From a virus: a stretch of 28,069 nt of DNA. Each line of letters opens with the position of its first letter. Within the stretch, counting starts at the first letter, position 1. The stretch is from positions 1 through 28,069 of IMG/VR virus record IMGVR_UViG_3300032931_000935; one strand, written 5' to 3'. The translations under genes and the position numbers were made by a program. A model generated the notes under the pieces. It made no database searches. It had not been told where the DNA came from and saw only the letters and a program-made list of their open reading frames with translations. Positions 1,156 to 20,610 of the stretch are shown piece by piece.

Positions 1156-3795
1156 TTAAATCGCCACCCACGTGCTGGTCCCCACGCACATCAACCTCGT
1201 AACGGTACTCGCCCCTGGAGAGGAAGTATAGCCTCCAAACCCATTTATCGTAGTCCCCGTGATCCCCGCATTGGTGATGATGGTTATTATGTGGCCGAGA
1301 GGCCAACATCCAGTTGTGGTCCTCAGGGTTACGGTAAGGTTGTCGGCGTTCACCCATATCACCGCTGCGGAAGTTGGATAAATAGTCGCATTGGCGACGA
1401 CTTCCAGCAAGTTCAGGTTCGGAATTATGACATTGTTGTAAATGACGCCGGAATACAGATCAGCCAGTCCGTCCGAGGAAACCAGGTTATGCCGGAAAAT
1501 GTTATTGATAGGGTTGACCCCGCCGCTCGTCGCGAAGACAAAGGGGACATCCCCGACATAGGATATGTCATTTTCCGCGAAGATTACGTTGTAGTTGCCG
1601 GCAACCCTGATTCCGCGATACACGTTGTCGATCTTGTTCCCGACAACCCGGCTGTCATATAGACGGTTGCAGGTAATGCCGCTTGACCCGAGGGCGGCAG
1701 TGGCACCATTGACCAAGGAAACGCTGTTCCCTATAATATCGACCTCTCGGATATCGTCTGGCAGCGTCAGCGAAGCTGGCAACTCGTTGACAATTCCAGT
1801 CGCAAAATTTCCGCTTACGGAATTATTTATGATCTTGATGCGGCGATACCATTTAGTGGCCGTGGCAGACATCACGTCTATCCCAATGGAAGTCACCGTT
1901 ACATCCCAGGCGAATGAGCCTGTGATAATGTTTCCCGAGACTATATTGTTGTATTGATCAACCGGCACCGTCCCTTCGGTCATCAAGATTCCGCGCTTGT
2001 AGAGAGCTCCGTCGTAATTGCTCGTGATCTTGATTATATTGGCTTCGACTACCGTATTATTGCAACCGGCTAAATCAACGCCGCCATGGGCCGTAATCTC
2101 ATTGTGGGATATGTTCCAATTGCTCCCAGTGACCTTTATTCCGTACATACCCTCGGATATCGAGTTGGCATGATCACTATGGGCCACGAAAACATTACCC
2201 TTTATCACCCCTCCAACACCACTATACAAATAGACTCCCTTGTCCTTAAAGGCGATGCCGTAGTTTTTCTGGATATTGACACGTCTCAGGGAATTTGCGG
2301 TCGTCCCGTCTATGGGGTCGAGGATGGCAGTCGCGCTACCATTGCTGCCCCCGCCGATCGCGTTGGTGCAATTTTCGATGTAGTTCCCCTCGACGACCGG
2401 AGCTCTACACGAGTTCAGCATCACCCCGATATACGAATACCCTCCCCATAAAGTAACGGGTGCTGGATATTCTGGATGGTCTACGTCCGTTAATTCCTTC
2501 CCGACGATTCGGTTGTTCCTTATGGTGGGGGAGAAGGTTCTGTTTACGATAATCCCGGCGAACTCCTGCATCAGAAGTGTCATGTTTTCAATCGTGGCAT
2601 AATGCCCTTCATGCGCTCCCGTCAGGTTCCCCACTTCGATCAAGCCCCCGGCGTTTACATCTATTTTCACATCCCCAGAACCCTCGATGGTGAAGTCTTT
2701 GATGGTGACGTAATCACCTGTCACATGGAACAAGGGGATCCCCAGCGCAGCAGCCGTGTGGCTCAACGTAATGTGAGCCTCCCCCGATATAGTCACGTAG
2801 TCGGTTGTGAGGTCAATGGTGTCCCCTGCCACATCCAGGAGTGCAGTATAGTCGCCTGCGGGCAAATACAACTCCTGCCCTGCAATGAGAGACGCGACCG
2901 CTGCTTTTATGACCGGGACCACGTCGGCGAGAGATGAGGACAGGCCAAACCATGCGGCACTTATCCTATTCGGACTACCAGCCGCAAAACGCACTACCCC
3001 TGCCCCGGAAATTACCTGGTGATTTCCGGCTTCAAAGCCACCATTGACAGTAACCGTTTTGCCGGTGGCAATGGCAAGGGACCCGCTCCGGTTGAACCAG
3101 AGGGTGACATAACTGGGGACCGTGACATCCCCGGCTACAGGTTCGACGGTGGAGATCCGCAATGTGGTGCCAGAAGAAAGGCTGGCAATGGCAGAGGCAA
3201 AGTCGGCGAATTGGCTGGAATCAACAAACTCTACCCCATCATTGACGGCAACGCCCGTAAGATCATAGAGGGCCGCGCCTGTCCCGGCCGCGTTCCATCC
3301 CCAAAGTTTACCGGCCCCAGGGACAGGGAGATTCACCCCTGTCATAGGTGAGGTCACGGGCAATTTGATCGAGCGGTCCACCGCCTCCTTCAACTGCTGG
3401 CTCATCATTACACTTTTGTCGAAGGTGCTTTCCAGACCTTTGGCGGGGAGGGGACCGTGTTCGGTGAGCAGGGTGAGCTGGGTGAGGGGGACTTCACGGT
3501 AGATTAATACGGTTGAACCTGTCGCGGGTGCGGTCACAAAAGTGACATTCCCCCCGGCGACCATCCCTGCCCCTGAGACGGAGTAATCCGTAGTTAGGGC
3601 TTTCGGAGACGAATCGACATAGACCTTCAGATCGGAGGTCAGGAGGGTCTTGAAGGTATAGGGAAAGACGGTCTGCCCGGCGGTGACGGTATAGGTGAGA
3701 CGAGAAGTCGCGGAAGAGAGGACGGCCTGAGTAGGTATCGCCGAAAGGGCCACGAGCATCCAGATCGAAACAGCAAAGGCGAGTAGCTTTTTCAT
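1156..3795 (-). CDS. T7-gp17-like tail fibre/spike with Sec signal peptide and beta-helix
   Basis: An 879-residue protein. The ATG is supported by a GAGGTAGG ribosome-binding site and an ATGA overlap with the upstream ejection-protein stop. Residues 1-24 form a classic Sec signal peptide (MKK, a hydrophobic core, then IPTQA). About residues 32-145 resemble the T7-type tail-fibre N-terminal attachment domain: FPYTFKTLLTSDLKVYVDSS, a YREVP strand, then FDKSVMMSQQLKEAVDRSIK. The long middle part is Ser/Gly/Asn-rich and reads as a right-handed parallel beta-helix, as in pectate-lyase-type tailspikes (many I-x-N-N-x-I and V-x-G-N turns). The C-terminal 85 residues match a module seen in other fibres of this phage. 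A signal peptide in front of a virion-attachment domain is unusual. Confidence 0.88.
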   Translation of the reverse strand: MKKLLAFAVSIWMLVALSAIPTQAVLSSATSRLTYTVTAGQTVFPYTFKTLLTSDLKVYVDSSPKALTTDYSVSGAGMVAGGNVTFVTAPATGSTVLIYREVPLTQLTLLTEHGPLPAKGLESTFDKSVMMSQQLKEAVDRSIKLPVTSPMTGVNLPVPGAGKLWGWNAAGTGAALYDLTGVAVNDGVEFVDSSQFADFASAIASLSSGTTLRISTVEPVAGDVTVPSYVTLWFNRSGSLAIATGKTVTVNGGFEAGNHQVISGAGVVRFAAGSPNRISAAWFGLSSSLADVVPVIKAAVASLIAGQELYLPAGDYTALLDVAGDTIDLTTDYVTISGEAHITLSHTAAALGIPLFHVTGDYVTIKDFTIEGSGDVKIDVNAGGLIEVGNLTGAHEGHYATIENMTLLMQEFAGIIVNRTFSPTIRNNRIVGKELTDVDHPEYPAPVTLWGGYSYIGVMLNSCRAPVVEGNYIENCTNAIGGGSNGSATAILDPIDGTTANSLRRVNIQKNYGIAFKDKGVYLYSGVGGVIKGNVFVAHSDHANSISEGMYGIKVTGSNWNISHNEITAHGGVDLAGCNNTVVEANIIKITSNYDGALYKRGILMTEGTVPVDQYNNIVSGNIITGSFAWDVTVTSIGIDVMSATATKWYRRIKIINNSVSGNFATGIVNELPASLTLPDDIREVDIIGNSVSLVNGATAALGSSGITCNRLYDSRVVGNKIDNVYRGIRVAGNYNVIFAENDISYVGDVPFVFATSGGVNPINNIFRHNLVSSDGLADLYSGVIYNNVIIPNLNLLEVVANATIYPTSAAVIWVNADNLTVTLRTTTGCWPLGHIITIITNAGITGTTINGFGGYTSSPGASTVTRLMCVGTSTWVAI

Positions 3796-9411: not shown

Positions 9412-9950
9412 CAAGTGCTCCGATAGTATCGGTTGTAAATATCCATCGTGCTTGAGGCCCCAGAGGCAGCGGATGAAACCCCCTGCCACATGCCCGCCTT
9501 AAGGGCCTGTCTGCCATACATATTATTCAGCATCGCCTGATAATTGGAGCTCCATGCCGCATTGGCACCACCTCGGCGGAGGGATTCAGCCTGGAGTTCT
9601 CCTGTCCGGCGGATATTGGAAAGTTCCCTGGCCGCCTCCTCTGCGCTCTCCATCATCACTTCAAGAGGACTGCCGGTGGTCGAGATACCCGAGGCTCCGT
9701 ATTGGGCCTGCTGGGTAGAGAGGGCTCGCTTCAATTGGATATCCCTGACCCGCAGTTCCTCCTTGGTGGCCATCTCTACAACTTCAGCTTGGCGTTCGCC
9801 TTCCTCCCGTTGCAGTTCGGCCTGAGTCTTATACATCCGGGCTTGCTGGGAATAGACTTTCTTTTCCTGCCGTCCCTTCTCGATCGTCATCGCTGTCGAG
9901 GAAACAGTCCCGACAATCCCCACTATCAAAGAAACCGCCGCCATTGACAT
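9411..9950 (-). CDS. internal virion protein B, T7 gp14-like
   Basis: A 179-residue protein with an N-terminal hydrophobic segment (AAVSLIVGIVGTVSSTAM, residues 4-21), then a long charged coiled coil rich in Gln/Glu/Arg, and a C-terminal GASGISTTGSPLEVM motif that recurs in phage virion core proteins of the T7 gp14 class. In T7, gp14 is ejected first and lodges in the outer membrane to begin the trans-envelope channel. The start follows the upstream stop directly (TAG then ATG), and its own stop overlaps the next start. Size and topology are close to T7 gp14. Confidence 0.8.
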   Translation of the reverse strand: MSMAAVSLIVGIVGTVSSTAMTIEKGRQEKKVYSQQARMYKTQAELQREEGERQAEVVEMATKEELRVRDIQLKRALSTQQAQYGASGISTTGSPLEVMMESAEEAARELSNIRRTGELQAESLRRGGANAAWSSNYQAMLNNMYGRQALKAGMWQGVSSAASGASSTMDIYNRYYRST

Positions 9951-10385
9951 CTATCCCTCACCTCGCAATCGGGAATACATGATGTGATCTTTTCCCAGGA
10001 TGTAGGCCCGCAGTCGGCCCTCCGCCTGGAAACCAAGTCTCATCAACCATTCCTGGTCTTTTTCCGAATCTGCATCGGCAGTCGCCTGTCCTCGGGCGAG
10101 TTCCATTACCGTATAGGCCTTGTCAAGATAATATTTGATGATCTTGTGAGCCGACCACTTCCAACTTTCCATATCCGGCTGGGGAACAAACCAGAATTCT
10201 CCGGTCCCCTTCCAGAGTTCAATCACGCCGAAACAGGCCTTGACCTCTCCCTCAATAAGAAAGGTGAAGGGAAGGCCGGTCATAAAAGACTCAACGCATT
10301 TGTCGCGGTTCGGTTGGCAAAGGGCCTCGCTGTTCTCTATCTCCAATATGTCCTCTGGCCGGAAGTCCCGCACGTCTACCCTCAT
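9951..10385 (-). CDS. gp13-like protein with GNAT acetyltransferase fold
   Basis: A 144-residue protein with the strand/helix order of a GNAT fold: an N-terminal VRDFRPEDILEIE beta-alpha start, central strands (PFTFLIEGEVKACFGVIELW), a conserved-looking EFWFVPQP segment, a helix (WSAHKIIKYYLDKA), and a C-terminal LMRLGFQAEGRLRAYILGKD strand pair. This matches the phage Gp13/DUF2833-type family that occurs between the tail nozzle and the core proteins in T7-like phages. In T7, gp13 is needed for virion morphogenesis; acetyltransferase activity has not been established there. The start overlaps the nozzle-gene stop as ATGA. Confidence 0.78.
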   Translation of the reverse strand: MRVDVRDFRPEDILEIENSEALCQPNRDKCVESFMTGLPFTFLIEGEVKACFGVIELWKGTGEFWFVPQPDMESWKWSAHKIIKYYLDKAYTVMELARGQATADADSEKDQEWLMRLGFQAEGRLRAYILGKDHIMYSRLRGEG

Positions 10386-13078
10386 CCCCCAACCTCCACG
10401 GTCCCAAAGATCGCCAGCACGGTGCAGGGCAATGGATTTCGTTGCTCTATTACAAGTTTCACATCGTAACCATGGCCAAGGTTCGTGACCTTCTTCAGGC
10501 CGGTGAAGGTCTGGGTGGCCTCGTCAAAGGGATCATCCCCGGTCCTCCACCAAACCTGTTCCCCGTTGATCGTAACACCTTGAGTCTCATAGAGCATGAC
10601 AAAGATCTCTACCCACCGCTTCTTTTGCCCCATCGAAGTCCCGGAGGACGTTGGCACCTCCAGGGTATTTGTCACGAGGATGGATTCAAAACCTTTTCCT
10701 GCCTCAACTTCTTCACATTCTTGGTCAAGAGTGATCTGTCCATTCACGTCAACTGTCTTGTCCTCCATCAATATCAGGTCTCCGACCACTTTCACGGTTT
10801 CGCCTACCAAGTGATCGAGGCCCCCGATAACGCTCGTGGCGGGACCGATATAGGTCAACCCACAATCGACGTTGATGGTCGGGTCCATAAGCTCGATGAG
10901 TCTCTTTTCCGTCCCGTTGATCGTTCTCTTGGTCGCGAGCCATAATTGATCCTCCTTGGTAATCTCATCCGGGATGATAGCGATGCTGTCAATATCTCCT
11001 TCCGTATGCACGCGAGTCCAGGCGACCACGGTATCTTGCAGCCGCTCGTAACAGACGGCCAGTAAGTCCCTGTCTTCCAGCAGAACCCAAATGACCGGCT
11101 GGGGAGTTTGCTGAAAGGCCAAGGCCCTGATCCCGTGCTCCAATAGGTGAGGGGCCAGGATACTCATGTCGGGGGCGACATAGGCATCCTCTTCCCACTT
11201 GTAGGTCATTTCCAACAGGCTTTTCTCTGCCCATTCAGTGAAGATGATTGAACCTCCTACCTTTAGGGGTTGAATAGTGGAGGCCCGCTGGGTCCCCTCC
11301 TCCCGCCGCTCGACATTCGTTGGGGTAATCATTGGATCCCCGGTCATGCGGTGGATCCCCGACATGGTGCCGATAATGAGGGCCGTCCTGGACTTGAGCC
11401 AACGGATTGCCGAGGAGGGAATAGTGAAGGTCCAAGGGTCGGCGTCACCAGTCCCTGGGGTGAAATTGTCGTAGTCTTCATAGGTGCCGGATTTCGATGC
11501 CCAAATTGTCGAAGGGCTTGACGATGTATGGGCGTAGAGCATCCGGTTCTCGTGGAGACAGACACAGGCCGGGAAGCCCCGGTAGGTTGACCAGGCTCCT
11601 TCCCGGTAATAATCGCAATTCCCTGTGGAATGGAAGGCCTTTTTTACCAGAACAGAAATCTGGGTTCCGTCTGTCCTTACCGTGATCTTCCCGTATCCCC
11701 AGTTGGTCCCTTCGTCCAGCCTCCAATAGGCCCCTACTTGGCCGGATACCCAGAGAAGACAGCGGTTCTCTATGTTGTCGAGGGTGCTGGTGGCGTTGGC
11801 CGTTTGCCGAAATTGGATAAAGACTTGGGAGAAGTTCGCCGTAAAGGTAATGATGTTAGCGAGTCCAATCGGCACCGTAGTGTCTGCCAGAATATCGTCC
11901 AACCCACTTGCCGAACCGATACGAATTTTGGCATCGGTAGTCTCCACATCCAACTTGACGCGGTATTGATTTCCGACCACACACAAATCCTGTTGCTCCA
12001 CCCATCCCACCCCGGCGGCACCCCCGGCGATATCAATTTTCCCCCCGGCGTTCCAACCGATACTCCCCGTGCCAGTCGATAGATCGGTCCAAAGAAGAAT
12101 GTCGCTCGGGAAATCCCCATTGACTATCTGGTTATTCGTCCGCAGAGTGACGGTCGTTCCGACACCACTGGTGGCAGAAGCTCTAACCTGGGGTTCAGCC
12201 ACCTTGTCGAGATAGGGGCCGTCTTCCGGATCTATGACGGCGAGGGTCCAGGCCGTGTGGGAAGACCGGGTGAGTTTGTAGGGTAGCCGGGACCCATCGC
12301 AGATGTAGAGGTAGTTGTTCGTCTGCTCATATACCAGGTCCGGCAGGTCCACGGTCTCATAAGGGCTGGTAAGAATTTCCACGGGCGCCCAGACGAAGAG
12401 ATCGACATTATCCAACTCTGCCGTTACCCCGGCGTTGGATATGAATTGGATGTAGGTAGTCAAGGATTTGGCGGTGAAATAGACCTCCCAGACGTGAGCC
12501 CCGTGCGTGTAGTTGGTGATCGGCAGGACTTCGCTTCCTCCCGAGGTCTTTCCAATCCGGCACTTCAGGTTATTTCCTGTGGCCAAGAACCGCAGACGAT
12601 ATTCTGTTCCGACAACCGTAGCAATTCCCTGTTGTGCTACTCCAGGGGCCACCACCGTCCCGGTAAGGTTCATGTGGTTGACAGACCAGGCAATTGTTCC
12701 GGGGGCAACAGAAAGGTTCGTCCAACCTGCAATCCCGGCAGGGAAGGTTCCATTTGTCACCAGTGTCGCCCCGGTCGCCTCACCGATCCGGTATCCATCC
12801 ATAAAGAACCGGAAGTAGAGGTCACCTACCTCCAGGATGTAGGCTTGGGTGGCGGAATAAACGAAGGGGATGAGGTTGCAGGAGTCGTCATCATATTTGG
12901 CATATGCTACGAATCGCATTCCTGCCCGGCGATCCGCCGGACCCTGCCGCAGGACGATGAAGTTCTCCATCAACTGAACGCCCTTGGCATAGCGGGGAAG
13001 ATCCAGGCGGCCAGCCGTGATCCCGCCCAGTTCTCCACCGGTGAAGTCAGTATAGAGGGGATGGGTTTTGAGTGCCAT
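10382..13078 (-). CDS. tail tubular protein B / nozzle (T7 gp12-like) with two inserted jelly-roll-like modules
   Basis: An 898-residue protein beginning with the signature of T7 gp12-type nozzle proteins: FTGGELGGITAGRLDLPRYA at residues 12-31, then MENFIVLRQGPADRRAGMRF. Later segments (NYLYICDGSRLPYKLTR; ASKSGTYEDYDNFTPGTGDA; SGIHRMTGD) also fit this family's beta-propeller core. Two related modules of about 125 residues interrupt the core at residues 107-228 and 317-443. Each starts with an NG(T/D)FP...W pattern, contains a GTEYRLRF- or GNQYRVKL-type strand and ends LDN, like a carbohydrate-binding jelly roll. It forms the distal end of the short tail. The start overlaps the upstream stop (TAATG). 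Confidence 0.87.
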   Translation of the reverse strand: MALKTHPLYTDFTGGELGGITAGRLDLPRYAKGVQLMENFIVLRQGPADRRAGMRFVAYAKYDDDSCNLIPFVYSATQAYILEVGDLYFRFFMDGYRIGEATGATLVTNGTFPAGIAGWTNLSVAPGTIAWSVNHMNLTGTVVAPGVAQQGIATVVGTEYRLRFLATGNNLKCRIGKTSGGSEVLPITNYTHGAHVWEVYFTAKSLTTYIQFISNAGVTAELDNVDLFVWAPVEILTSPYETVDLPDLVYEQTNNYLYICDGSRLPYKLTRSSHTAWTLAVIDPEDGPYLDKVAEPQVRASATSGVGTTVTLRTNNQIVNGDFPSDILLWTDLSTGTGSIGWNAGGKIDIAGGAAGVGWVEQQDLCVVGNQYRVKLDVETTDAKIRIGSASGLDDILADTTVPIGLANIITFTANFSQVFIQFRQTANATSTLDNIENRCLLWVSGQVGAYWRLDEGTNWGYGKITVRTDGTQISVLVKKAFHSTGNCDYYREGAWSTYRGFPACVCLHENRMLYAHTSSSPSTIWASKSGTYEDYDNFTPGTGDADPWTFTIPSSAIRWLKSRTALIIGTMSGIHRMTGDPMITPTNVERREEGTQRASTIQPLKVGGSIIFTEWAEKSLLEMTYKWEEDAYVAPDMSILAPHLLEHGIRALAFQQTPQPVIWVLLEDRDLLAVCYERLQDTVVAWTRVHTEGDIDSIAIIPDEITKEDQLWLATKRTINGTEKRLIELMDPTINVDCGLTYIGPATSVIGGLDHLVGETVKVVGDLILMEDKTVDVNGQITLDQECEEVEAGKGFESILVTNTLEVPTSSGTSMGQKKRWVEIFVMLYETQGVTINGEQVWWRTGDDPFDEATQTFTGLKKVTNLGHGYDVKLVIEQRNPLPCTVLAIFGTVEVGG

Positions 13079-13671
13079 TATGTCCTTACCGAGGTGAAGG
13101 TGTCAGAGCTAAAGGAGTAATGGGATTGCCCGGCCTGGGAGTCCATTGTCCGGGCCTGTTGCAAGATTTGTCCGAAGAGACTCCACATTTCGGCAGCGGC
13201 GCCCGCTCCCTTGACCGCAGGAGCGATATTCGCCGCCAGGGCATACACAAGGGCCTGGGTGAACAGGTCGTCGAACAGAGAGCAATCTGTGATCCTGGAG
13301 GTATATAGGATCGAAATGGCATCCTGGTCTGTCTCGATGAAATTCCCCACTTGTCTGTATTCAATAGCGCCGTCTGATTCGTCCAGGGAAATGACTTTCA
13401 CGCAGTCAACCGGCAGGGTGAATTTATGCTCGTATCCCCAAATCGGTGCGGGAAGAGCCGAGGCCAGGGCCGCTCGTGCATTGGCAAATTTCCAAGGATG
13501 GCATCGTAATGCCGCCCCAAGGGCGATATCCCACATGGCGTTGAGGATGGTAATATTCGTATTGTTCCCCCGGCCGCAGGTAGGACAAACGTCCGCCCCC
13601 ACCAAGGCGATGATCGTTGTTTCTCCCAGGGCAATCAGGGACGCATTGCAGATTTCAGTTTGGGATGGCAT
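13078..13671 (-). CDS. tail tubular protein A / head-tail adaptor (T7 gp11-like)
   Basis: A 197-residue protein. The family pattern is clear: EICNASLIALGE at residues 6-17, RCHPWKFANARAALA at about residues 56-70, and a C-terminal helical region that ends by the portal side in homologues. In T7 gp11, twelve copies join the portal to the nozzle. An unusual CPTCGRG segment near residue 29 sits in the loop before the second helix. It could bind a metal or form a disulfide, and I do not recall it in the family. The start lies inside the tail of the tiny zinc-ribbon gene. Confidence 0.83.
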   Translation of the reverse strand: MPSQTEICNASLIALGETTIIALVGADVCPTCGRGNNTNITILNAMWDIALGAALRCHPWKFANARAALASALPAPIWGYEHKFTLPVDCVKVISLDESDGAIEYRQVGNFIETDQDAISILYTSRITDCSLFDDLFTQALVYALAANIAPAVKGAGAAAEMWSLFGQILQQARTMDSQAGQSHYSFSSDTFTSVRT

Positions 13672-13786
13672 CCTTTTTCTCCTCTATCTTTTCTCTGTAC
13701 CCACAGTCCGGGCAGACAAGCCACTTCATGGTGAAATCCCACACTTCCCTCATTTTGTTCCCGCATTTGGGGCAAGGGGGCTTCAT
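13655..13786 (-). CDS. small zinc-ribbon protein (43 residues)
   Basis: A short gene that a 60-residue cutoff would miss. It starts MKPPCPKCGNKMREVW and has a second Cys pair in LVCPDCGYREK, giving CxxC-17-CxxC, the arrangement of a zinc ribbon. The remaining C-terminus is Lys/Glu-rich. Its ATG overlaps the upstream stop as TAATG, and its 3' end overlaps the gp11-like gene start by 17 bases, so it fits the translational-coupling pattern of the whole cluster. Small zinc ribbons are frequent in phages, usually of unknown role. Confidence 0.75.
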   Translation of the reverse strand: MKPPCPKCGNKMREVWDFTMKWLVCPDCGYREKIEEKKDAIPN

Positions 13787-14130
13787 TACATCGCCGCCGT
13801 CCGACCTTCTTCAACCCAAAGGGTTCCGTCTTTGCAGGTGAAGGACACTTGGAAAATCTTTGCCGTCACTGTACCAGTTGACAGTTTTCCCGCTGCCTTG
13901 AAGTTGGTCCCGAAGGTCAAGACCCTCGCCGTTGTCCCGCTGGTGGTGATGATGAAACCTACCCTCTGCCCTGCTATCCCGCCACTGGCATTAAAGGTGC
14001 AGGCCCCGGTGGGGGTGATGGTGAAAACACTCACCGTCCCCATATTCACCGTCATGGCCCCAGTTGTTGCCGGTGTTGCACTTGCACCCATGAGGGCACG
14101 ATGGGCTACTTGTTCTGTCTGGGCTGCCAT
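13786..14130 (-). CDS. small fibre- or decoration-like structural protein
   Basis: A 114-residue protein without signal peptide, rich in Thr/Gly/Ala and predicted all-beta. About residues 40-112 resemble the C-terminal module of the 330-residue fibre and of the tail spike in this window: a GQRVGFIITTSGTTARVLTF segment, then a strand pair ending FTCKDGTLWVEEGR. Here the module stands almost alone, so it may be a head-decoration or fibre-cap subunit. No family name is recognised. The start lies two bases after the preceding stop and the stop overlaps the zinc-ribbon start. Confidence 0.68.
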   Translation of the reverse strand: MAAQTEQVAHRALMGASATPATTGAMTVNMGTVSVFTITPTGACTFNASGGIAGQRVGFIITTSGTTARVLTFGTNFKAAGKLSTGTVTAKIFQVSFTCKDGTLWVEEGRTAAM

Positions 14131-14132
14131 TC

Positions 14133-14402
14133 TTACGCCGCCACATCGTCATAAGAAACTGCCAGTTCTCCTGCTGCATCCCGCTGGACAGACACGATAT
14201 TAAACTGTCCGGGCGTCGGAGATGTGATAACCGCCTTCCCCAATTTGGTCGCGGCGGCTGAATCCAATGCGGCGAGATCGGCGGGGTTCACCTGCGCTCC
14301 AGCCGCGATGCCTGACAACTTCGTGGCGGCAGCAGAATCAAGGGCTGCCAGATTGGCATAACTCTGAGCATTAGGATCAAGGACCATCGTTTGGATTGCC
14401 AT
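14133..14402 (-). CDS. small tail-fibre-like repeat protein
   Basis: An 89-residue protein with two copies of LAALDSAAATKL, the first followed by SGIAAGAQVNPA, a turn motif widespread in phage tail-fibre shafts. It ends with RDAAGELAVSYDD, which resembles the C-terminus of the neighbouring 62-residue protein. A GAAGGAGGATAATT leader provides a strong ribosome-binding site. It may be a short fibre connector or a remnant of a larger fibre gene. No signal peptide. Its relation to fibres rests on the repeat motif only. Confidence 0.65.
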   Translation of the reverse strand: MAIQTMVLDPNAQSYANLAALDSAAATKLSGIAAGAQVNPADLAALDSAAATKLGKAVITSPTPGQFNIVSVQRDAAGELAVSYDDVAA

Positions 14403-14404
14403 AA

Positions 14405-14593
14405 TTATCCTCCTTCTGGGGTGTCGTCATAGGCAACGATCAACTTCTTTGTTTCGGGATCGACATAAAGATTCACTACCCGGCATTTGCCAACGGGAGG
14501 GTTGGAAGTAACCACGTCCGAACTTGATTCAAAAATTGGAGTAACTTCTTCCTGGAATAGCCTCAGTTTTTGAAGGACTGCATAGGGGTTCAT
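14405..14593 (-). CDS. small protein with C-terminal YDD motif
   Basis: A 62-residue protein with a helical N-terminal half (YAVLQKLRLFQEEVTPIF) and a beta-rich C-terminal half ending DPETKKLIVAYDDTP. The end resembles the end of the adjacent 89-residue protein (a D..G/K-L-x-V-x-YDD pattern), so the two may share a partner or descend from one fibre-associated gene. Its ATG overlaps the secreted beta-helix gene stop (ATGA). No family recognised. Confidence 0.6.
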   Translation of the reverse strand: MNPYAVLQKLRLFQEEVTPIFESSSDVVTSNPPVGKCRVVNLYVDPETKKLIVAYDDTPEGG

Positions 14594-16116
14594 GGAAGTG
14601 TAATCGTCCCCGCCCCCTCAGGCGTGCCACCACCTGCTCCTATCCCCGTTATTGTCCCTGCCCCTCCAAGTCCAATCCCAATAAGCGCCCCCGTCCCTGC
14701 ATCAGGTGCGAACGCCACCGTCACGGTCGCATCCGTCGTGATCGCCGAGGTCGTGCAGGAGTTGCCCGACACCCAGTCCGTCGTGCAACCCGATGGCGAC
14801 ACAGATTCGGTATGAAAGCCTGAGGCTGGGGTGAAAGTAATTGCGGCGGTGGCCCCGTAGACCACCAGTCCCGATCCCGCCACACCGTCCACCGCACCCG
14901 AGCCGTTGCCACCATTGACGGAGATGGTGACGGTCCTTGGGATTAACTGATGCGGATAGGTGTAGGCCACATAACCTGGCATGGCAGAGAGGTAGAAGTC
15001 CTGGTTGACCACGATAAAATTGGCAGCATCCTGGGTGCCGCTGCACGTCCCCTCGCATACTCCTGGATCTGCATAATCCTGCACGACACAGGTGGCGGCG
15101 ACCCCGTTGACCGTATTGCTCCAGAAATAAAGTGGCTCCAGGGCCTGAGCGTTCCCGCGCCCCACCTGGTCGGTACAAGGATAGGTGCAACAGCATCCCT
15201 CACCGTTTTCAGGCAACATATCGAGGCGGTACTCCATCAGGGTCGCCCCGTGATTTATCAGATTGCCCGTCTCGGTCATCGTGTTGCTATAAAATACCCC
15301 CGTGCCTCCTCGCACATTAAACCACCGGGTCTGCGCCTGCCCGGCATCGACACTCCAGATATTGCTGTAAACTTCCACGTGCCGTGTCCCGCCACCCTGA
15401 GCGGCGGTGTAGGCGACATTACCATGACTATCAAAGTCCATGTCATCGACGGTATTGTAGCGGAAGACCACCCGCGCCCCGCGATCTGCCATCACGCAGT
15501 GCCGACCGCTGATCGGATTGCGAGTGTCGGTAAAAATGTTATCCTCAAAATATACGGCATTCGCGGTTCCAAGTGTGGATGCTGTGGACCACGAGTCCGA
15601 TCTTCCATATACCGCCACTTGAGAGGCAGTAGCGGGGCCAGCATTGGAAAAAAGATTGTGGTCGATTATCCCATAGGCGTTGTAAACAGCAATCGGATAG
15701 CGGTGTGTTCCCCCGCCAATGAAAGAACAATGGTCAATCCTGAATCCGGTGCCAGTGTAGTTGATCCAGTTGGTGTCGTTTGAAACGGTTGTCGAATCCA
15801 TGCTGAAGGTAATGCCCGTGATCCGTACCGCCGCCGTCCAATTCAACATACAATTGGGCCAGGTGGCGGAATGATAACCGTTGATAATCGTGGTCAAGCC
15901 TGCCCCAGCTCCCTGGACCGTAATCGCTATTGCTACCGTGCTCTGGGCAGACCAGGTGGCAGAACCCGCAGGGAGAGACACAATATCCCCTGCTGTGGCG
16001 GCGGCAACTGCTGTGTTGAAATCCGCCTGAGATAATGACGCGGCCACATGGGTATCGGCCAGGGCAGGAAATGCCCACAGACAAACGATAAAGGTTAGGA
16101 GGAGAAGTTTTTTCAT
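14590..16116 (-). CDS. secreted right-handed beta-helix (pectate-lyase-like) protein
   Basis: A 508-residue protein with a textbook Sec signal peptide (MKKLLLL... FPALA, cleavage before Asp21). Residues about 25-390 read as a right-handed beta-helix: LPAGSATWSAQSTVAIAITV, a VQGAGAGLTTIING turn as in pectin-lyase-fold proteins, then repeated FRYNTV- and VYSNIW-type coils. Two Cys-rich loops (EGCCCTYPC and VCEGTCSG) suggest disulfides, which fits export. The last 120 residues are Gly/Thr-rich and contain a bacterial repeat-like domain (VTISVNGGNGSGAVDG... ATVTVAFAPD). The chosen ATG has a GGGGGA ribosome-binding site at good spacing; a TTG at 16122 is less likely. It may be a secreted polysaccharide depolymerase or exported spike. 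I see no virion-attachment domain. Confidence 0.8.
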   Translation of the reverse strand: MKKLLLLTFIVCLWAFPALADTHVAASLSQADFNTAVAAATAGDIVSLPAGSATWSAQSTVAIAITVQGAGAGLTTIINGYHSATWPNCMLNWTAAVRITGITFSMDSTTVSNDTNWINYTGTGFRIDHCSFIGGGTHRYPIAVYNAYGIIDHNLFSNAGPATASQVAVYGRSDSWSTASTLGTANAVYFEDNIFTDTRNPISGRHCVMADRGARVVFRYNTVDDMDFDSHGNVAYTAAQGGGTRHVEVYSNIWSVDAGQAQTRWFNVRGGTGVFYSNTMTETGNLINHGATLMEYRLDMLPENGEGCCCTYPCTDQVGRGNAQALEPLYFWSNTVNGVAATCVVQDYADPGVCEGTCSGTQDAANFIVVNQDFYLSAMPGYVAYTYPHQLIPRTVTISVNGGNGSGAVDGVAGSGLVVYGATAAITFTPASGFHTESVSPSGCTTDWVSGNSCTTSAITTDATVTVAFAPDAGTGALIGIGLGGAGTITGIGAGGGTPEGAGTITLP

Positions 16117-16325
16117 GTGCAATCCCCCGGCATCGTATCATCGTCAAGTTGGATATTCTCAAACTGATAGGTCGCGGCATCGGCGTCTGCTGCGTTATTT
16201 CCGATAAACACTTTGTCTACGTCTCCCGTGTCGGCATAAACCAACCCGGCGCAGAGAAAGACGGCCACCGAGAATAGGACCGCTACGAACCACAGAAACC
16301 ATTCACCCAATGTCTTTTTCATCAT
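16113..16325 (-). CDS. small exported or membrane protein
   Basis: A 70-residue protein that is half signal peptide: MMKK, then a long hydrophobic segment (WFLWFVAVLFSVAVFLCAGL) ending VYA before DTG, followed by about 37 acidic residues (about residues 33-70). It overlaps the O-antigen ligase-like gene upstream and the beta-helix gene downstream through ATGA junctions, so the three are translationally coupled. This coupling suggests a shared role at the envelope. The short acidic mature part has no recognised domain. It could also stay membrane-anchored. Confidence 0.65.
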   Translation of the reverse strand: MMKKTLGEWFLWFVAVLFSVAVFLCAGLVYADTGDVDKVFIGNNAADADAATYQFENIQLDDDTMPGDCT

Positions 16326-17815
16326 CGCACCCCCGGATAGTAAAAGGCCTTTTTGGATTGGTAGAAGCCAATCCAGCCCGAAGTTACTGACAAGGCATCG
16401 TAGAGTTGTGGAGAATCGAAACCCCTCTGGGCGTGTTGCAACTGGAAGAAAGCGTTTCTGGTCTCACCTTTTACCTGGTAGGCCCTGGCCCTGTCAATGT
16501 AGACCAGGGCATCCTTCCCGCCAACACCTTCGGCCATATCGCATAGGACCAATTGGCGGTCGTATTTCTGTTGGAGAAAAGATGACATCCCGCGCCAGAC
16601 CAGGGTACTCGAAATGAGGGCTCTGGTGTAATAGATACCTGAGATGATGCAGATGAAGACCATAATGACGGCAGTCATGCGTACCGGTATTTTGAACCTC
16701 ATCGGTACTTCCCTCTGACTGATGAAAAACCCGAACAGGAGCAGGCTCCAGATGTTCGACAGGGGAAAAGCAAAGAAGCCCCCTACCACCATAGCCACCA
16801 AACCGGCAGAACAGACGAGAGGGGCCTTCTGGATACCCAGAACGAGGATGACCAGAAAGAGAATGAGGGCGGGAATCCCGAGCTCGGCTGCGAAATGCAG
16901 GAACTGGTTGTGAGGGGACTCGAGGGTGGCATTCGAATTCCCGTTCCACATGAGTCCCACATAGGGTTTGAGTTTGCTGTCCGGGCGGTCTTGGAAGTAG
17001 CGTCCCTGATACCCGGGGTATTCGTCCCGGAATCTGTTCTGCCCCACACCGAGGATGGGATTGTCGGCAATCATGGAGGCCGTTACGGTCCACCAGAGCA
17101 TCCGACCCTTCACCGTATTGCTATTGTTCACTCGTTGAACAATCCAGGGGGTGAAGGCCAGGGAGATGACCGTCAGGCTGATGGTCACAATCATTGCGGT
17201 TTTCTTCATCGCCTTTCCCCGGATACACCAGAGGAAGTAGATAATTCCAGCCAGCATCGCCAGCATGGCCGCCCGGGATCCGGTCGCCACAATGACAATG
17301 ATACAGACCGGGGCCAGCCAAATGAACTTGCTGATAACCAAAGGCAGGATGGCAGATAGATACTCCCCCAGGAATATGGGGTTGCCGAGGAAAGAGAAGG
17401 GGCGTTGATCGGGTGCCCATCCGATCCACAGGCTTTTTGGGTTCCTATATATCGGGATGTCGATCTTGAACATCTGAAGGATGGCATAGGCACAGATCGC
17501 CCCCGTCACCCACATCAGAGGCGCAGAAAGGTCTTTGCGGATAAAGAAGATGGGCAAAAGAAGAGGAAGAATGAAGGGGTCTTTGATTGGACTTGCCGCC
17601 CCGGTGTAGCGGATGATCGCCCACAGGACGAAAACCACGAGAAGCGTCCCGGCGAGATCTATCGGGATCGGATCTGCCTTCTTGGAAACAGCGAGAAAAG
17701 CAAAGAAGATACCGAGCAGTATCGCCAAGGAAATCAACTTGGGCTGCCGGTAGCCGGACACGCACTCCGGGTAGAAAGGCAGGATAGCGAAGGGAATGAG
17801 CCACCAGACTTTCAA
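16322..17815 (-). CDS. O-antigen ligase/polymerase-like membrane protein (Wzy_C/WaaL family)
   Basis: A 497-residue protein with about ten hydrophobic segments between residues 1 and 405. The family signature is present: an ATGSRAAMLAMLAG segment after the central helices, then a long periplasmic loop beginning GVGQNRFRDEYPGYQG and ending ESPHNQFLHFAAELGIPALI, the conserved His-Asn-x-hydrophobic/Glu-Leu-Gly pattern of O-antigen ligases and polymerases. About 90 residues after the last helix look like TPR-type helices (YIDRARAYQVKGETRNAFFQ). The start is TTG with an AAGGAG site five bases upstream. Family members join or polymerise lipid-linked glycans at the periplasmic face. In a phage it could change surface glycans and block superinfection; that role is inference. 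Confidence 0.88.
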   Translation of the reverse strand: MKVWWLIPFAILPFYPECVSGYRQPKLISLAILLGIFFAFLAVSKKADPIPIDLAGTLLVVFVLWAIIRYTGAASPIKDPFILPLLLPIFFIRKDLSAPLMWVTGAICAYAILQMFKIDIPIYRNPKSLWIGWAPDQRPFSFLGNPIFLGEYLSAILPLVISKFIWLAPVCIIVIVATGSRAAMLAMLAGIIYFLWCIRGKAMKKTAMIVTISLTVISLAFTPWIVQRVNNSNTVKGRMLWWTVTASMIADNPILGVGQNRFRDEYPGYQGRYFQDRPDSKLKPYVGLMWNGNSNATLESPHNQFLHFAAELGIPALILFLVILVLGIQKAPLVCSAGLVAMVVGGFFAFPLSNIWSLLLFGFFISQREVPMRFKIPVRMTAVIMVFICIISGIYYTRALISSTLVWRGMSSFLQQKYDRQLVLCDMAEGVGGKDALVYIDRARAYQVKGETRNAFFQLQHAQRGFDSPQLYDALSVTSGWIGFYQSKKAFYYPGVR

Positions 17816-17828
17816 CGGGTCTCCTTGC

Positions 17829-18194
17829 CTACCTGGAATGTGAAGTCACAAAGGCCGAGAACTCGACCACAGCAATCATCCTGAACCACTGAGGATGATC
17901 TATCACGATGATGTCCCCGTCCTTGCAATGATAACACGTCGCATCCGGGGTGTAATTGGTCTCGGTCACGCCGGTGTAGTAATCATACCGATAGTAACCC
18001 GCCCCGTTCGTTTGGAGCAGACACGGAAGATTGCCTTTCAGCGCCCCGAAGGGTTGATAGGTCGCAGCGGTGATCTTCTTGACGGCGGTAGTGGTCACGT
18101 GCAGACTCTCACTCAGGAAGGGTGCCCCGGTGATTGCCCAAACCGTCGCCACGGAGGCCAGGATTATCAAAACTGAAAACAAGAACTTTTTCAC
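17829..18194 (-). CDS. small exported protein resembling a phage structural domain
   Basis: A 121-residue protein starting at GTG, with an AGGAGG site six bases upstream; an ATG at 18335 is in frame but would overlap the upstream gene and hide the signal peptide. Residues 1-20 are a Sec signal (VKKFLFSVLIILASVATVWA). The mature part is beta-rich with a YYRYDYYTGVTETNYTP segment and DGDIIVIDHPQWFRMIAVVEF. That resembles small phage proteins with an xxRYRxDGxxPTxxxGxxLxxGDxIxL pattern, normally cytoplasmic virion components. Two Cys residues lie close (CYHC). Three exported proteins are encoded within the next 3 kb. Confidence 0.7.
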   Translation of the reverse strand: MKKFLFSVLIILASVATVWAITGAPFLSESLHVTTTAVKKITAATYQPFGALKGNLPCLLQTNGAGYYRYDYYTGVTETNYTPDATCYHCKDGDIIVIDHPQWFRMIAVVEFSAFVTSHSR

Positions 18195-18209
18195 GGTGAT
18201 CCTCCTGAA

Positions 18210-18232
18210 GGGGGAGGTTTCCGGCCTCCCCC
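18210..18232 (-). other. GC-rich hairpin between the decoration-like and exported-protein genes
   Basis: A perfect 8-bp stem (GGGGGAGG / CCTCCCCC) with a 7-base loop sits 3 bases upstream of the AGGAGG ribosome-binding site of the exported 121-residue gene. No T-run follows on the minus strand, so it is not a standard terminator. It may slow ribosomes, protect an mRNA end or tune expression of the accessory cassette. Confidence 0.55.
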
Positions 18233-18276
18233 CTCTGAAGTGACCTGTCTGCATGCGAACGCACAGGCAGGTTGGT

Positions 18277-18714
18277 TTACGGGCGCAGGAAAGAGACCTC
18301 GCCCTTGATCGTTCCGGCGTCAACCAGGGCCTCACCCGTTACGGTCAGGGTCAGCCAGAATCCGGTGGCCACATATTCCCCATAATACAGGGCATCCGTA
18401 TTCCCGAACTCATCAGATCCGGCTGCATCCATATCCAGGGCGTTTGCGTATTTCGCCGCAGTTGTTCCATCGCCCACACTGCATCCGGAGGTCCCACCCG
18501 CACTCGACAGGGCCGTATTTACGGTTTTCCCACCGAGCAGGCGAACCCCCTTCGGGATGTATCTGAGGGCAATGGTTTGAGCCACGGCCAGGTCTCCGGC
18601 AGGAACGGTGTAGTCGAAATACAGGGTTTCCTTCTTCCCTTGGTCCCTTGAATCTACGCTCGACTGCGGGACCGCTATTTCGAGCGTTGCCTGAGTGCTA
18701 TACTTGTCAGCCAT
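18277..18714 (-). CDS. putative capsid decoration-like protein
   Basis: A 145-residue protein without signal peptide, downstream of the fibre-like gene and close to the major capsid gene. It is beta-rich with a YTVPAGDLAVAQTIALRYIP segment, then IPKGVRLLGGKTVNTALSSA and a C-terminal TGFWLTLTVTGEALVDAGTI. This layout is like abundant phage head-associated proteins of similar size that lie after the capsid gene. I do not recognise a named family. A GAGGTGA ribosome-binding site precedes the ATG. Confidence 0.65.
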   Translation of the reverse strand: MADKYSTQATLEIAVPQSSVDSRDQGKKETLYFDYTVPAGDLAVAQTIALRYIPKGVRLLGGKTVNTALSSAGGTSGCSVGDGTTAAKYANALDMDAAGSDEFGNTDALYYGEYVATGFWLTLTVTGEALVDAGTIKGEVSFLRP

Positions 18715-18729
18715 GCTTTTTCACCTCGC

Positions 18730-19722
18730 TTAGTTGTCGGCCCGTCCGGTTTCGACCCAGACTGAACCAGTATAGAGACCGGACCAAGTATCTTCTGCCG
18801 CAAGGGTCATCCCGCCAGCCGTGGCGTTAATGACTCCCGCTTGATCCGTAAATTGAATCGTGTAGGTGGCAGCGTTGTAAATCGTAAGGAGCTGGCCAGC
18901 CACCGCACCACCCTCAAACCACGTGATTGCCGCTATTCCATCCGGATCGTTGTTGGTAAAGGCGTAGCACGATGCCGTCGGAGTGAAGTTGTAGCTCGCA
19001 CTTCGACCCCCTACCGCGTCATTGGCAATCGTAATGGCAACGGGAGTCGTGTTTAAGCTAACGGTCGTGACAGAAGTCACGCTCGGACTCGCCGTATAGG
19101 CCGGAACTGTGCTCGCCCCAGCGGAAGCCAGGACTTGACCAGTTGCCACGGCGGCCACTACACCAACCGTATTTGCGCTGGTCGCCACCGCGATGTCTCC
19201 AGTCGTCGCGGCATTGGGGAGAACTAAAGTGGACCAAGCGGGAGCGGTCGTTGCTCCTCCATTGCGAAGGAACATTCCGGCAGTAGCCCCGGCATTCAAA
19301 GCGGCAAAAGTATTAGTGCCGCTCGAATACATCACGTCGCCGGTGGTTGAAGCGTTAGGCAGGATAGTCGAAGACCAAGCCGCCGCCGTGCTGGCACCCG
19401 CAGACCGCAACCAAAGCCCAGCCGTTGATTGGCTGAGTTTCCCTATTACGGTCCCCGAGGTGAATACTACGATGTCGCCGGTCGTCCCAGAGGTTGGAAT
19501 CGTGAAGGACGACCAAGCCGGTGCGGATGCTCCCGCCTGCAAAATCTTTCCCGCCGTTCCAAGCGGCAGGTTGAGCATATACCCGCCACTGGAATAGAAC
19601 ACATCCCCGGTGCCGGTCCCTGATGCGAGAGGCCACCTGTAATCTCCTGCCGCCGCAAAGACGCTGACGGCGAAGGCAAGCAAGATGGTCAAGACCAGGA
19701 AGGAACTTTTGATTTTCTTCAT
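18730..19722 (-). CDS. repeat fibre protein with Sec signal peptide
   Basis: A 330-residue protein. Residues 1-23 are a signal peptide (MKKIKSSFLVLTILLAFAVS then VFA). Residues about 38-225 hold four tandem repeats of about 45 residues, each beginning TGD(V/I) and continuing SSG...L..GTAG..L...GA..APAWS, a repeat common in phage tail fibres. The last 85 residues form a beta-rich module ending YTGSVWVETGR, shared in outline with the spike and the 114-residue protein. The ATG has a GGGGAGGT site. It lies directly downstream of the capsid gene. It could be a head fibre or an exported adhesin; the signal peptide favours export, the repeats favour virion origin. Confidence 0.78.
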   Translation of the reverse strand: MKKIKSSFLVLTILLAFAVSVFAAAGDYRWPLASGTGTGDVFYSSGGYMLNLPLGTAGKILQAGASAPAWSSFTIPTSGTTGDIVVFTSGTVIGKLSQSTAGLWLRSAGASTAAAWSSTILPNASTTGDVMYSSGTNTFAALNAGATAGMFLRNGGATTAPAWSTLVLPNAATTGDIAVATSANTVGVVAAVATGQVLASAGASTVPAYTASPSVTSVTTVSLNTTPVAITIANDAVGGRSASYNFTPTASCYAFTNNDPDGIAAITWFEGGAVAGQLLTIYNAATYTIQFTDQAGVINATAGGMTLAAEDTWSGLYTGSVWVETGRADN

Positions 19723-19740: not shown

Positions 19741-20610
19741 TTACACTTCGGTGCAAAGCATTTGAAGCACTTTGCAATCCTCGATACGACTCGCGGTCAC
19801 GCTGAACTGAGTGTAGATATACCAGCGAAACCGCTTGTCGGCCCGATTCTCGACCTTCGTCCATTCACTACGCACAGAGGCGCCCATCCCGCTCTTGCAG
19901 TAGACATAGCAATAGCGGTCTGCCGCTGGCTTGGCGAGCTTGTTGGATACGATCCAGTTCATCCCCATCCACCGGGAAACCAGTGTCCCGTCGGCGATGG
20001 GTTTGTTCACGTTGAACTCGAAGGACTTCCACTCGGCGATAGCCGGTAGGTCCTTCGTCGCCTGATACTCACTGATGAGAACCGTAATGTCCTCAACATC
20101 CGGGTCCACATCGTAATACATGAACAACCGCTTGGCCTCGTAAAGTTTGGCAAGGGTCAAGCCAGTTGCCCCCGCTGCGATCTGGTAAGCACCAGGGAAG
20201 GTAACGGGGGTCCCCCCAGCGTGGCCTTCGTAGGCAGTCCCGCCGAGGGCGTTGACGATCCGCTCATCTTTCCGCCGTCCCACGGCTGCGGCTGCAACCT
20301 GAGTATAGGCGGATTTGGGGTCGATGAGGTAATCCGAGGGGTCGTTGATCCCCAGGAGTTTGCCCCAGCCGTAAGTCTGCCAGGACAGCATCCGGCGATC
20401 ATTGGCAACGGTCATGTCGGGGGAGTTGTCGGCGAGTGCAGTGACCTCCTCAGTCTCGGAGCTACCCCACCGTTCAAAGAAAGTGGCGGTCCCTTCCGTC
20501 TTGATATCCCGGCGGACCGTGTTCTCCAACTTGGAAGTCTTCTGTTGGGAGAGCAAGATGATATTGCTCGAAAACGTGTCTATTTTTGCCTGTTCAATTG
20601 TATCGGCCAT
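19741..20610 (-). CDS. major capsid protein (Phage_capsid_2-type)
   Basis: A 289-residue protein. The N-terminal helix (ADTIEQAKIDTFSSNIILLS) is followed by an extended loop with SKLENTVRRD and a WGKLLGINDPSDYLIDPKSA segment, then VAAAAVGRRKDERIVNALGG, which is the spine-helix pattern of HK97-fold capsids of T7-unrelated podoviruses and siphoviruses grouped as Phage_capsid_2. The C-terminal part (WTKVENRADKRFRWYIYTQF) fits the P-domain end. It follows the scaffold gene, as expected for a capsid operon. The start follows directly on a small upstream ORF's TAA. Confidence 0.87.
   Translation of the reverse strand: MADTIEQAKIDTFSSNIILLSQQKTSKLENTVRRDIKTEGTATFFERWGSSETEEVTALADNSPDMTVANDRRMLSWQTYGWGKLLGINDPSDYLIDPKSAYTQVAAAAVGRRKDERIVNALGGTAYEGHAGGTPVTFPGAYQIAAGATGLTLAKLYEAKRLFMYYDVDPDVEDITVLISEYQATKDLPAIAEWKSFEFNVNKPIADGTLVSRWMGMNWIVSNKLAKPAADRYCYVYCKSGMGASVRSEWTKVENRADKRFRWYIYTQFSVTASRIEDCKVLQMLCTEV

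Follow-up and report, generated by a model that had tools for sequence, protein, structure and literature searches.

The PglL/PilO O-oligosaccharyltransferases (O-OTases) are Wzy_C family members encoded outside lipopolysaccharide (LPS) loci; PglL-type enzymes lie next to or near the gene of a pilin-type acceptor in 21 of 31 cases, and PglL conserves the three residues known to matter in the Escherichia coli ligase WaaL, R215, R288 and H338 (PMC3643930). Among tailed phages, the temperate phage VarioGold encodes a polytopic Wzy_C protein, VG_p25, next to a signal-peptide gene and in a separate putative moron cluster, which its authors compared with Pseudomonas D3, phi297 and PP9W (PMC9658991). 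Here we analyse a Wzy_C gene that lies instead inside a virion gene block, among genes of predicted exported fibre- and spike-type proteins, between the capsid and gp11 tail adaptor genes of IMG/VR record IMGVR_UViG_3300032931_000935. The whole record, a linear fragment of 28,069 bp, is called the window below.

The cytoplasm is the assumed site of both synthesis and assembly of tailed-phage virion proteins. A Sec signal on a virion receptor-binding protein is familiar from pIII of filamentous phages, which can also block superinfection; filamentous phages, however, assemble at the membrane, whereas the window belongs to a tailed phage. Tailspikes of the T7, Uetakevirus and Dpo31 types combine an N-terminal virion anchor with a beta-helix, and the window spike does the same but has a 24-residue Sec signal prepended. 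In the order and homology of portal, scaffold, capsid, gp11 and gp12 the window agrees with the HTVC010P-type pelagiphages and the VP2/VP5-type vibriophages. HTVC010P also has the capsid cement gene; in HTVC010P-type phages, though, the capsid-gp11 gap holds just that gene and small genes, with no signals.

Judged from sequence comparison, exported proteins and a Wzy_C enzyme form a real recurring module, present in at least two unrelated backbones among four other contigs. We tentatively read the window interval as one instance of a late module of exported appendages plus Wzy_C, in which the enzyme would glycosylate exported phage proteins.

Gene content of the capsid-gp11 interval

Relatives were drawn from capsid and portal scans (the best 600 stretches, with top matches dominated by HTVC010P-type phages), and gaps were compared across the 118 loci, window included, that have an identified capsid gene and an identified gp11 gene. 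The window gap measures 6,070 bp, against 60-1,306 bp in 114 of the 117 relatives, where it mostly holds one gene of about 150 amino acids (aa); only the window and contigs L061, L003 and L002 (4/118) exceed 1.4 kb. A first-pass annotation, made from the sequence alone, had placed about ten genes in some 6 kb here, and from 19722 to 13655 there are ten open reading frames on the minus strand, 43-508 aa long and mostly with good ribosome-binding sites. With their borders they are:

19741..20610, minus strand: major capsid protein, left border (phrog_3437, 1.3e-62)
18730..19722, minus strand: fib330, exported protein of fibre-like type; Sec signal, repeats rich in S/T/A/G, weak Phage_depo_C likeness in a C-terminal stretch
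18277..18714, minus strand: p145, capsid cement protein (family profile and fold match)
17829..18194, minus strand: p121, small exported protein; Sec signal, GTG start, Shine-Dalgarno AGGAGG
16322..17815, minus strand: polytopic enzyme of the Wzy_C (O-antigen ligase) family; PF04932 at 8.8e-24, TTG start with AAGGAG
16113..16325, minus strand: p70, small exported protein; Sec signal, ATGA-coupled to the ligase
14590..16116, minus strand: bh508, exported Cys-rich beta-helix-like protein with a C-terminal repeat domain; Sec signal, ATGA-coupled to p70
14405..14593, minus strand: p62, small signal-less protein, ATGA-coupled to bh508
14133..14402, minus strand: p89, small fibre-linker-like signal-less protein
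13786..14130, minus strand: p114, small S/T/A-rich signal-less protein
13655..13786, minus strand: zinc-ribbon-like protein of 43 aa, TAATG-coupled to p114; four Cys in two CPxCG-type pairs, weak zinc-ribbon matches
13078..13671, minus strand: gp11 tail adaptor, right border (phrog_394, 1.3e-36)

The ATGA overlaps claimed for ligase, p70 and bh508 are real, and stop and start codons overlap at two further junctions, bh508/p62 (ATGA) and p114/zinc ribbon (TAATG). All interval genes share one strand, with overlapping frames, inside the virion block, and promoter and terminator matches are no better than in shuffled sequence. In codon fit and guanine-cytosine (GC) content the Wzy_C gene resembles core genes, and a recent import of the cassette from a host finds no support in either measure. 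The relative L061 has a 7-kb capsid-gp11 interval (9867-16550) filled with other genes, including one for a 977-aa extracellular-type protein, and carries no signals there.

The Wzy_C enzyme and its exported neighbours

The window enzyme matches PF04932 (Wzy_C) at 8.8e-24 with 84.4 bits, above the curated cut-off of 31.7. It is polytopic, with about ten hydrophobic segments by hydropathy where the family has about 10-12, and its R181, R238 and H302 are placed by motif as R215, R288 and H338 of E. coli WaaL. These features mark it as an intact Wzy_C member with predicted glycan ligase or polymerase activity, as the first-pass annotation had it. Its surroundings are of the PglL type, since it is flanked by signal-bearing p121, p70 and bh508 outside any LPS locus; it is not filed as PglL because it lacks the PglL_A motif. 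Relatives of this enzyme were found neither by tblastn in 50,697 phage records nor, as close relatives, by single-protein scans of viral contigs and of genome contigs. Among 100 portal or capsid relatives there is a single Wzy_C gene, in L161, outside the gap and in another module. This L161 protein (1315-2403, minus strand; 362 aa) is a second kind of phage Wzy_C, encoded beside a VRR-NUC-like gene and without the arginine equivalent to R215.

Four interval proteins, starting at 19722, 18194, 16325 and 16116, carry strong Sec signals with A-x-A-like sites, in agreement with the initial count. Each has the positive n-region, hydrophobic core and small residues at -3/-1 of a type I (Sec) signal, with cleavage predicted at VFAAA^GDY (fib330), TVWA^ITG (p121), LVYA^DTG (p70) and PALA^DTH (bh508). 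Signals were scored with a home-made detector, and shuffled N-termini served as control; it fired on 6/880 shuffled gap N-termini of the sister clade described below and 2/160 of the window, so the signals are not due to chance. The first transmembrane segment of the ligase was a false positive of the detector and was rejected as a signal.

The exported proteins themselves are poorly connected to known families. fib330 (24% serine plus threonine) matches PF25692 at 0.00069, below the cut-off, and has no relatives in named phages; p121 has no family match. The label beta-helix given earlier to 16116-14590 (bh508, with 13 cysteines) is favoured by the sequence pattern and a weak match to a PL6 lyase (0.017), and finds no Pfam match to back it; a single-protein scan of viral contigs returned no close relatives of bh508, nor of the window gp12. 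That fib330, p114 and the spike end in one common C-terminal domain was rejected, as profile comparison lent it no support.

A sister clade with signals in the same slot

Starting from contigs L002 and L003, we reached a sister clade, 22 contigs in all, with the order capsid, a 270-aa signal-less protein, at least one signal-bearing protein, gp11 and gp12. Signals occur in 24 of its 44 gap genes (18/20 contigs), whereas elsewhere on the plus strand of these contigs 6 of 169 genes have one; L180, L181 and L182 among them are near-identical. The corresponding counts for HTVC010P-type phages are 0/128 gap genes and 3/1,311. Genome contigs supplied 80 portal relatives, for the most part proteobacterial prophages or contigs of metagenome-assembled genomes, and no comparable signal-bearing gap block was seen in them.

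The main exported protein of this clade begins like a coiled coil, continues as a right-handed beta-helix-like body and ends in a C-terminal beta-sandwich. Its Protein Data Bank (PDB) matches with E<=0.001 number 23, every one of them a tailspike or tail fibre of a phage, at low template-modelling (TM) scores of 0.21-0.33 by query length, and a small exported neighbour shares its C-terminal domain (hhalign 99.9%). A post-capsid homologue without signal, annotated as lacto-N-biosidase, is found in ctMEh928. In addition, vir555 (BK063671.1, host listed as Methanomicrobiales) encodes directly before gp11 a protein with a signal-like hydrophobic N-terminus (L269:10884-11396), and the N-terminal region of its gp12 is 52% identical to that of L003.

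Recurrence of the beta-helix and Wzy_C pair

Scanning with the sister-clade beta-helix family gave 50 loci; signals are present in roughly half of those that are distinct, and the rest have a different N-terminal segment. Ten genes tested upstream of the beta-helix genes fall into three unrelated PHROGs (212, 1357 and 10) of major head proteins, and signal-bearing and signal-less beta-helices both occur after these unrelated head genes. The signal-less post-capsid proteins of L289, L294, L297, L300, L304, L306, L307, L312 and L313 begin with a common segment, approximately SPLFxRKxxGGVFxVVNETLTTGNIFYVDSG, which may be a head-binding module whose place the signal takes.

Wzy_C proteins above the cut-off were found in 4 of the 45 records searched (L311, L293, L282 and L283), and in all four the gene lies directly downstream of a signal-bearing beta-helix gene. 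In L293 the beta-helix stop and the Wzy_C start overlap, and gp11 and a signal-bearing gp12 come next. Homology among the four enzymes (27-30%) extends over most or all of each sequence, and the pair travels as a unit between backbones, because the capsids of L293 and L282/L283 show no similarity. Equivalents of R181, R238 and H302 are kept in all five enzymes, the window's included, and the window enzyme matches the four by profile at 97.7%, within the Wzy_C core. The four also bear C-terminal tetratricopeptide repeats (TPR), a protein-binding domain. Two of them, used as tblastn queries, found no relative in the 50,697 phage records. In L282 a third signal-bearing protein follows the Wzy_C gene (7955-8728) and contains a LamG/concanavalin-type domain (PF13385, 1.7e-16).

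The first-pass annotation had made its proposal depend on conservation of the cassette in related phages. This is borne out, with signal-bearing proteins filling the same interval in the sister clade and a tailspike-like/Wzy_C pair in four further contigs. What ties the window to this module is the location, the signals and the core of the enzyme, not full homology, because homology of bh508 to the other exported beta-helices is undetectable.

Sec signals in front of virion proteins

Signals are not confined to the interval. The export signals announced for the tailspike (3795-1156) and for a lipoprotein within 1052-492 (LLSGC) are both present. The spike gene is:

1156..3795, minus strand: tailspike; Sec signal directly before a T7-type virion anchor, then a beta-helix

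Its 24-residue signal is followed from residue 25 by a match to phrog_1640 (1.5e-31) that starts at profile position 3. This match identifies the anchor as T7-type; PF03906 (0.02) stays below its cut-off. The body matches Beta_helix (9.3e-13) and the Dpo31 structure 28lx (4.2e-13). Homologous spike genes in HTVC010P, phiV10 and Carin1 begin at the anchor domain and have no signal; for phiV10 and Carin1 spikes, signals were considered and ruled out, as the coding sequences start at the anchor.

The gp12 nozzle bears a signal in seven contigs (L002, L003, L165, L166, L172, L174 and L293), which keep an A-x-A-like site while other residues vary, and there is one gp12 only per contig. Neither gp11 nor the window gp12 has a signal. 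In L165, L166 and L172 no ATG, GTG or TTG precedes the gp12 signal; the sequence reads AAGGAGGGG and then ATT CGT AAA, which suggests a conserved ATT start codon. A signal has thus been added in three protein families, spike, gp12 and post-capsid beta-helix, whose members elsewhere lack one. A collagen-like tail fibre in L050 (6776-8302) also has a strong Sec signal. Literature searches of partial coverage turned up no paper describing a Sec signal on a nozzle or a tailspike.

What the module may do

The module probably serves either the export and sugar-coating of phage spike proteins or a change of the host surface. The signals, the intact enzyme, its position, the recurring pair in phages with unrelated capsids and the signals before virion proteins are all features of the sequence. 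From them we infer late expression, actual export and glycan transfer, along with an acceptor and a final place for the products, as follows. Late in infection, tailspike- or fibre-type proteins would be made alongside capsid and sent by their N-terminal signals through the host Sec pathway. The Wzy_C enzyme, with an active site facing outward from the inner membrane, would act on the same exported set and move host lipid-linked glycan onto the phage proteins, an O-glycosylation of the PglL/PilO type. The glycosylated proteins would then act outside the cytoplasm, free or on virions after lysis.

Glycosylation of the phage's own exported proteins would fit the adjacency at least as well as surface remodelling. 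It is slightly favoured because of that adjacency, the TPR of the four relatives and the absence of recognised LPS genes nearby. The window enzyme resembles PglL/PilO in its family, in the three residues conserved in PglL, in adjoining exported candidate acceptors and in lying outside LPS loci; it differs in being phage-encoded, in having presumptive acceptors that would be phage appendages, and in lacking PglL_A, as PilO also does (PMC3643930). Several observations weigh against this reading. The enzyme stays far below the cut-off of TIGR03097 (1.8e-7) and has no match to PF15864 (PglL_A), Wzy_C being its sole Pfam match at E<=1. Its similarity to the four other enzymes is confined to the Wzy_C core (L283: 25.7% over 245 aa, 5e-7), and no TPR was detected in it. 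Homology of bh508 to the sister-clade beta-helices was rejected at a profile probability of just 2.7%. Furthermore, most exported beta-helices do without Wzy_C, since only 4/45 records have it, and its association with signal-bearing forms (4/~24, versus 0/~15 signal-less) is not significant alone. Finally, the signals were called by a home-made detector and not by SignalP.

The first-pass annotation had instead proposed surface remodelling, which we consider plausible though somewhat less probable. Here a late Wzy_C would alter the host O-antigen or another surface glycan while exported proteins cut or cover receptors, so that progeny would not re-adsorb to debris and other phages would be shut out. 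Phage Wzy_C genes have a precedent in conversion clusters, in VG_p25 of VarioGold (PMC9658991), and O-antigen-modifying (acetylase) genes lie beside tailspikes in phiV10 (oac, annotated 'superinfection immunity') and PAS61. Depolymerase tailspikes and, less closely, lacto-N-biosidase have folds like that of the exported beta-helix, and L282 adds an exported LamG-type lectin domain. However, the VarioGold gene is a putative temperate-phage moron oriented apart from late genes, whereas the window gene belongs to the virion block, among exported fibre/spike-type proteins, and shows neither the separate cluster nor the separate orientation or regulation of a seroconversion moron. Late expression would leave little time for LPS change, no other O-antigen gene is recognised nearby, and the signals on the anchored spike and on the gp12 nozzle go unexplained. 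What stands of the proposal is a late cassette joining exported proteins with Wzy_C; a host-surface target, superinfection exclusion and depolymerase activity found no support. Nor does secretion alone suffice as a description, as the spike keeps its T7-type anchor, the sister-clade gp12 bears a signal, and adjacent exported proteins are equally possible acceptors.

The signals on gp12 and the anchored spike point to virion proteins crossing the membrane, which we rate less likely. In one version, judged unlikely, spikes, fibres and even the nozzle would be exported by Sec, folded and glycosylated in the periplasm by the phage Wzy_C, with the adjacent beta-helix as acceptor, and docked on heads at lysis. 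In another, a shade less likely still, the same proteins would be stored outside the inner membrane and dock at lysis, Wzy_C being an independent passenger. The single gp12 per contig and the signals before canonical virion proteins (the anchored spike, and gp12 in seven contigs) agree with such storage, but gp11 and the window gp12 have no signal, the beta-helix/Wzy_C pairing is left unexplained, and addition of the nozzle from the periplasm is not known to us from any tailed phage.

It is improbable that the post-capsid slot simply tolerates insertions and gathers unrelated genes. Its content does vary, as in the 7 kb of other genes in L061, and Wzy_C is found once elsewhere, in the other module of L161; yet exported beta-helix and Wzy_C adjoin in phages whose capsids are unrelated, and the slot is strongly enriched in signals. 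That the hydrophobic N-termini are membrane- or virion-anchoring segments is very improbable: some relatives have long hydrophobic stretches (e.g. L177 and L178), but a positive n-region, an h-region of 10-15 residues and small -3/-1 residues recur, and the A-x-A-like site of gp12 is kept in seven contigs.

Set against the assumption of cytoplasmic assembly, Sec signals are seen here in several lineages, directly in front of the anchor of a tailspike, of a nozzle protein and of spike-like proteins encoded after the capsid. Either lytic growth includes secretion of spike-like enzymes together with editing of surface glycans, or virion parts are sent through the periplasm and glycosylated; each reading, if true, would give a function to a stretch of viral dark matter.

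The cement protein and the phage backbone

Not every gene of the interval is cargo. The product of 18714-18277 (p145), formerly counted with the cassette, is the conserved capsid cement protein of this lineage. It matches the hidden Markov model of the relatives' post-capsid family of about 150 aa at 2e-17, and its AlphaFold (AF2) model, with a predicted local distance difference test (pLDDT) score of 86, finds by Foldseek in the PDB the Pam1 cement protein 7eel_H (TM 0.68, 4.1e-7) and capsid or cement proteins of KHP30, GP4 and KHP40, all consistent with a beta-sandwich cement of the Pam1/GP4/KHP30 type. The family adjoins the capsid gene in relatives, and in the window fib330 sits between the two. 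Membership in this family and the cement-type fold make p145 a core gene flanked by accessory cargo. The earlier statement that T7 has nothing between capsid and tail adaptor is right for T7, but the lineage of the window normally carries the cement gene there.

The window phage is an uncultured podovirus related to HTVC010P. Its structural genes all lie on the minus strand: TerL, portal (PF12236, 9.4e-92), scaffold, capsid, the interval, gp11, gp12 (phrog_376), a gp14-like gene, large internal proteins and the tailspike. By capsid the closest named phages are HTVC010P-type pelagiphages (about 35%), and VP2/VP5-type vibriophages match too. Relatives of HTVC010P are described as lytic and as having no integrase (PMC6811365). 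TerL (27508-24875, minus strand) is apparently interrupted directly after the Walker A lysine by a LAGLIDADG intein (PF14528, 5e-9), with junctions GPRGEGK|CRTTS and FIVTHN|TEGG; the translation has L after K (GPRGEGKLCRTTS), hence the N-terminal splice point is approximate.

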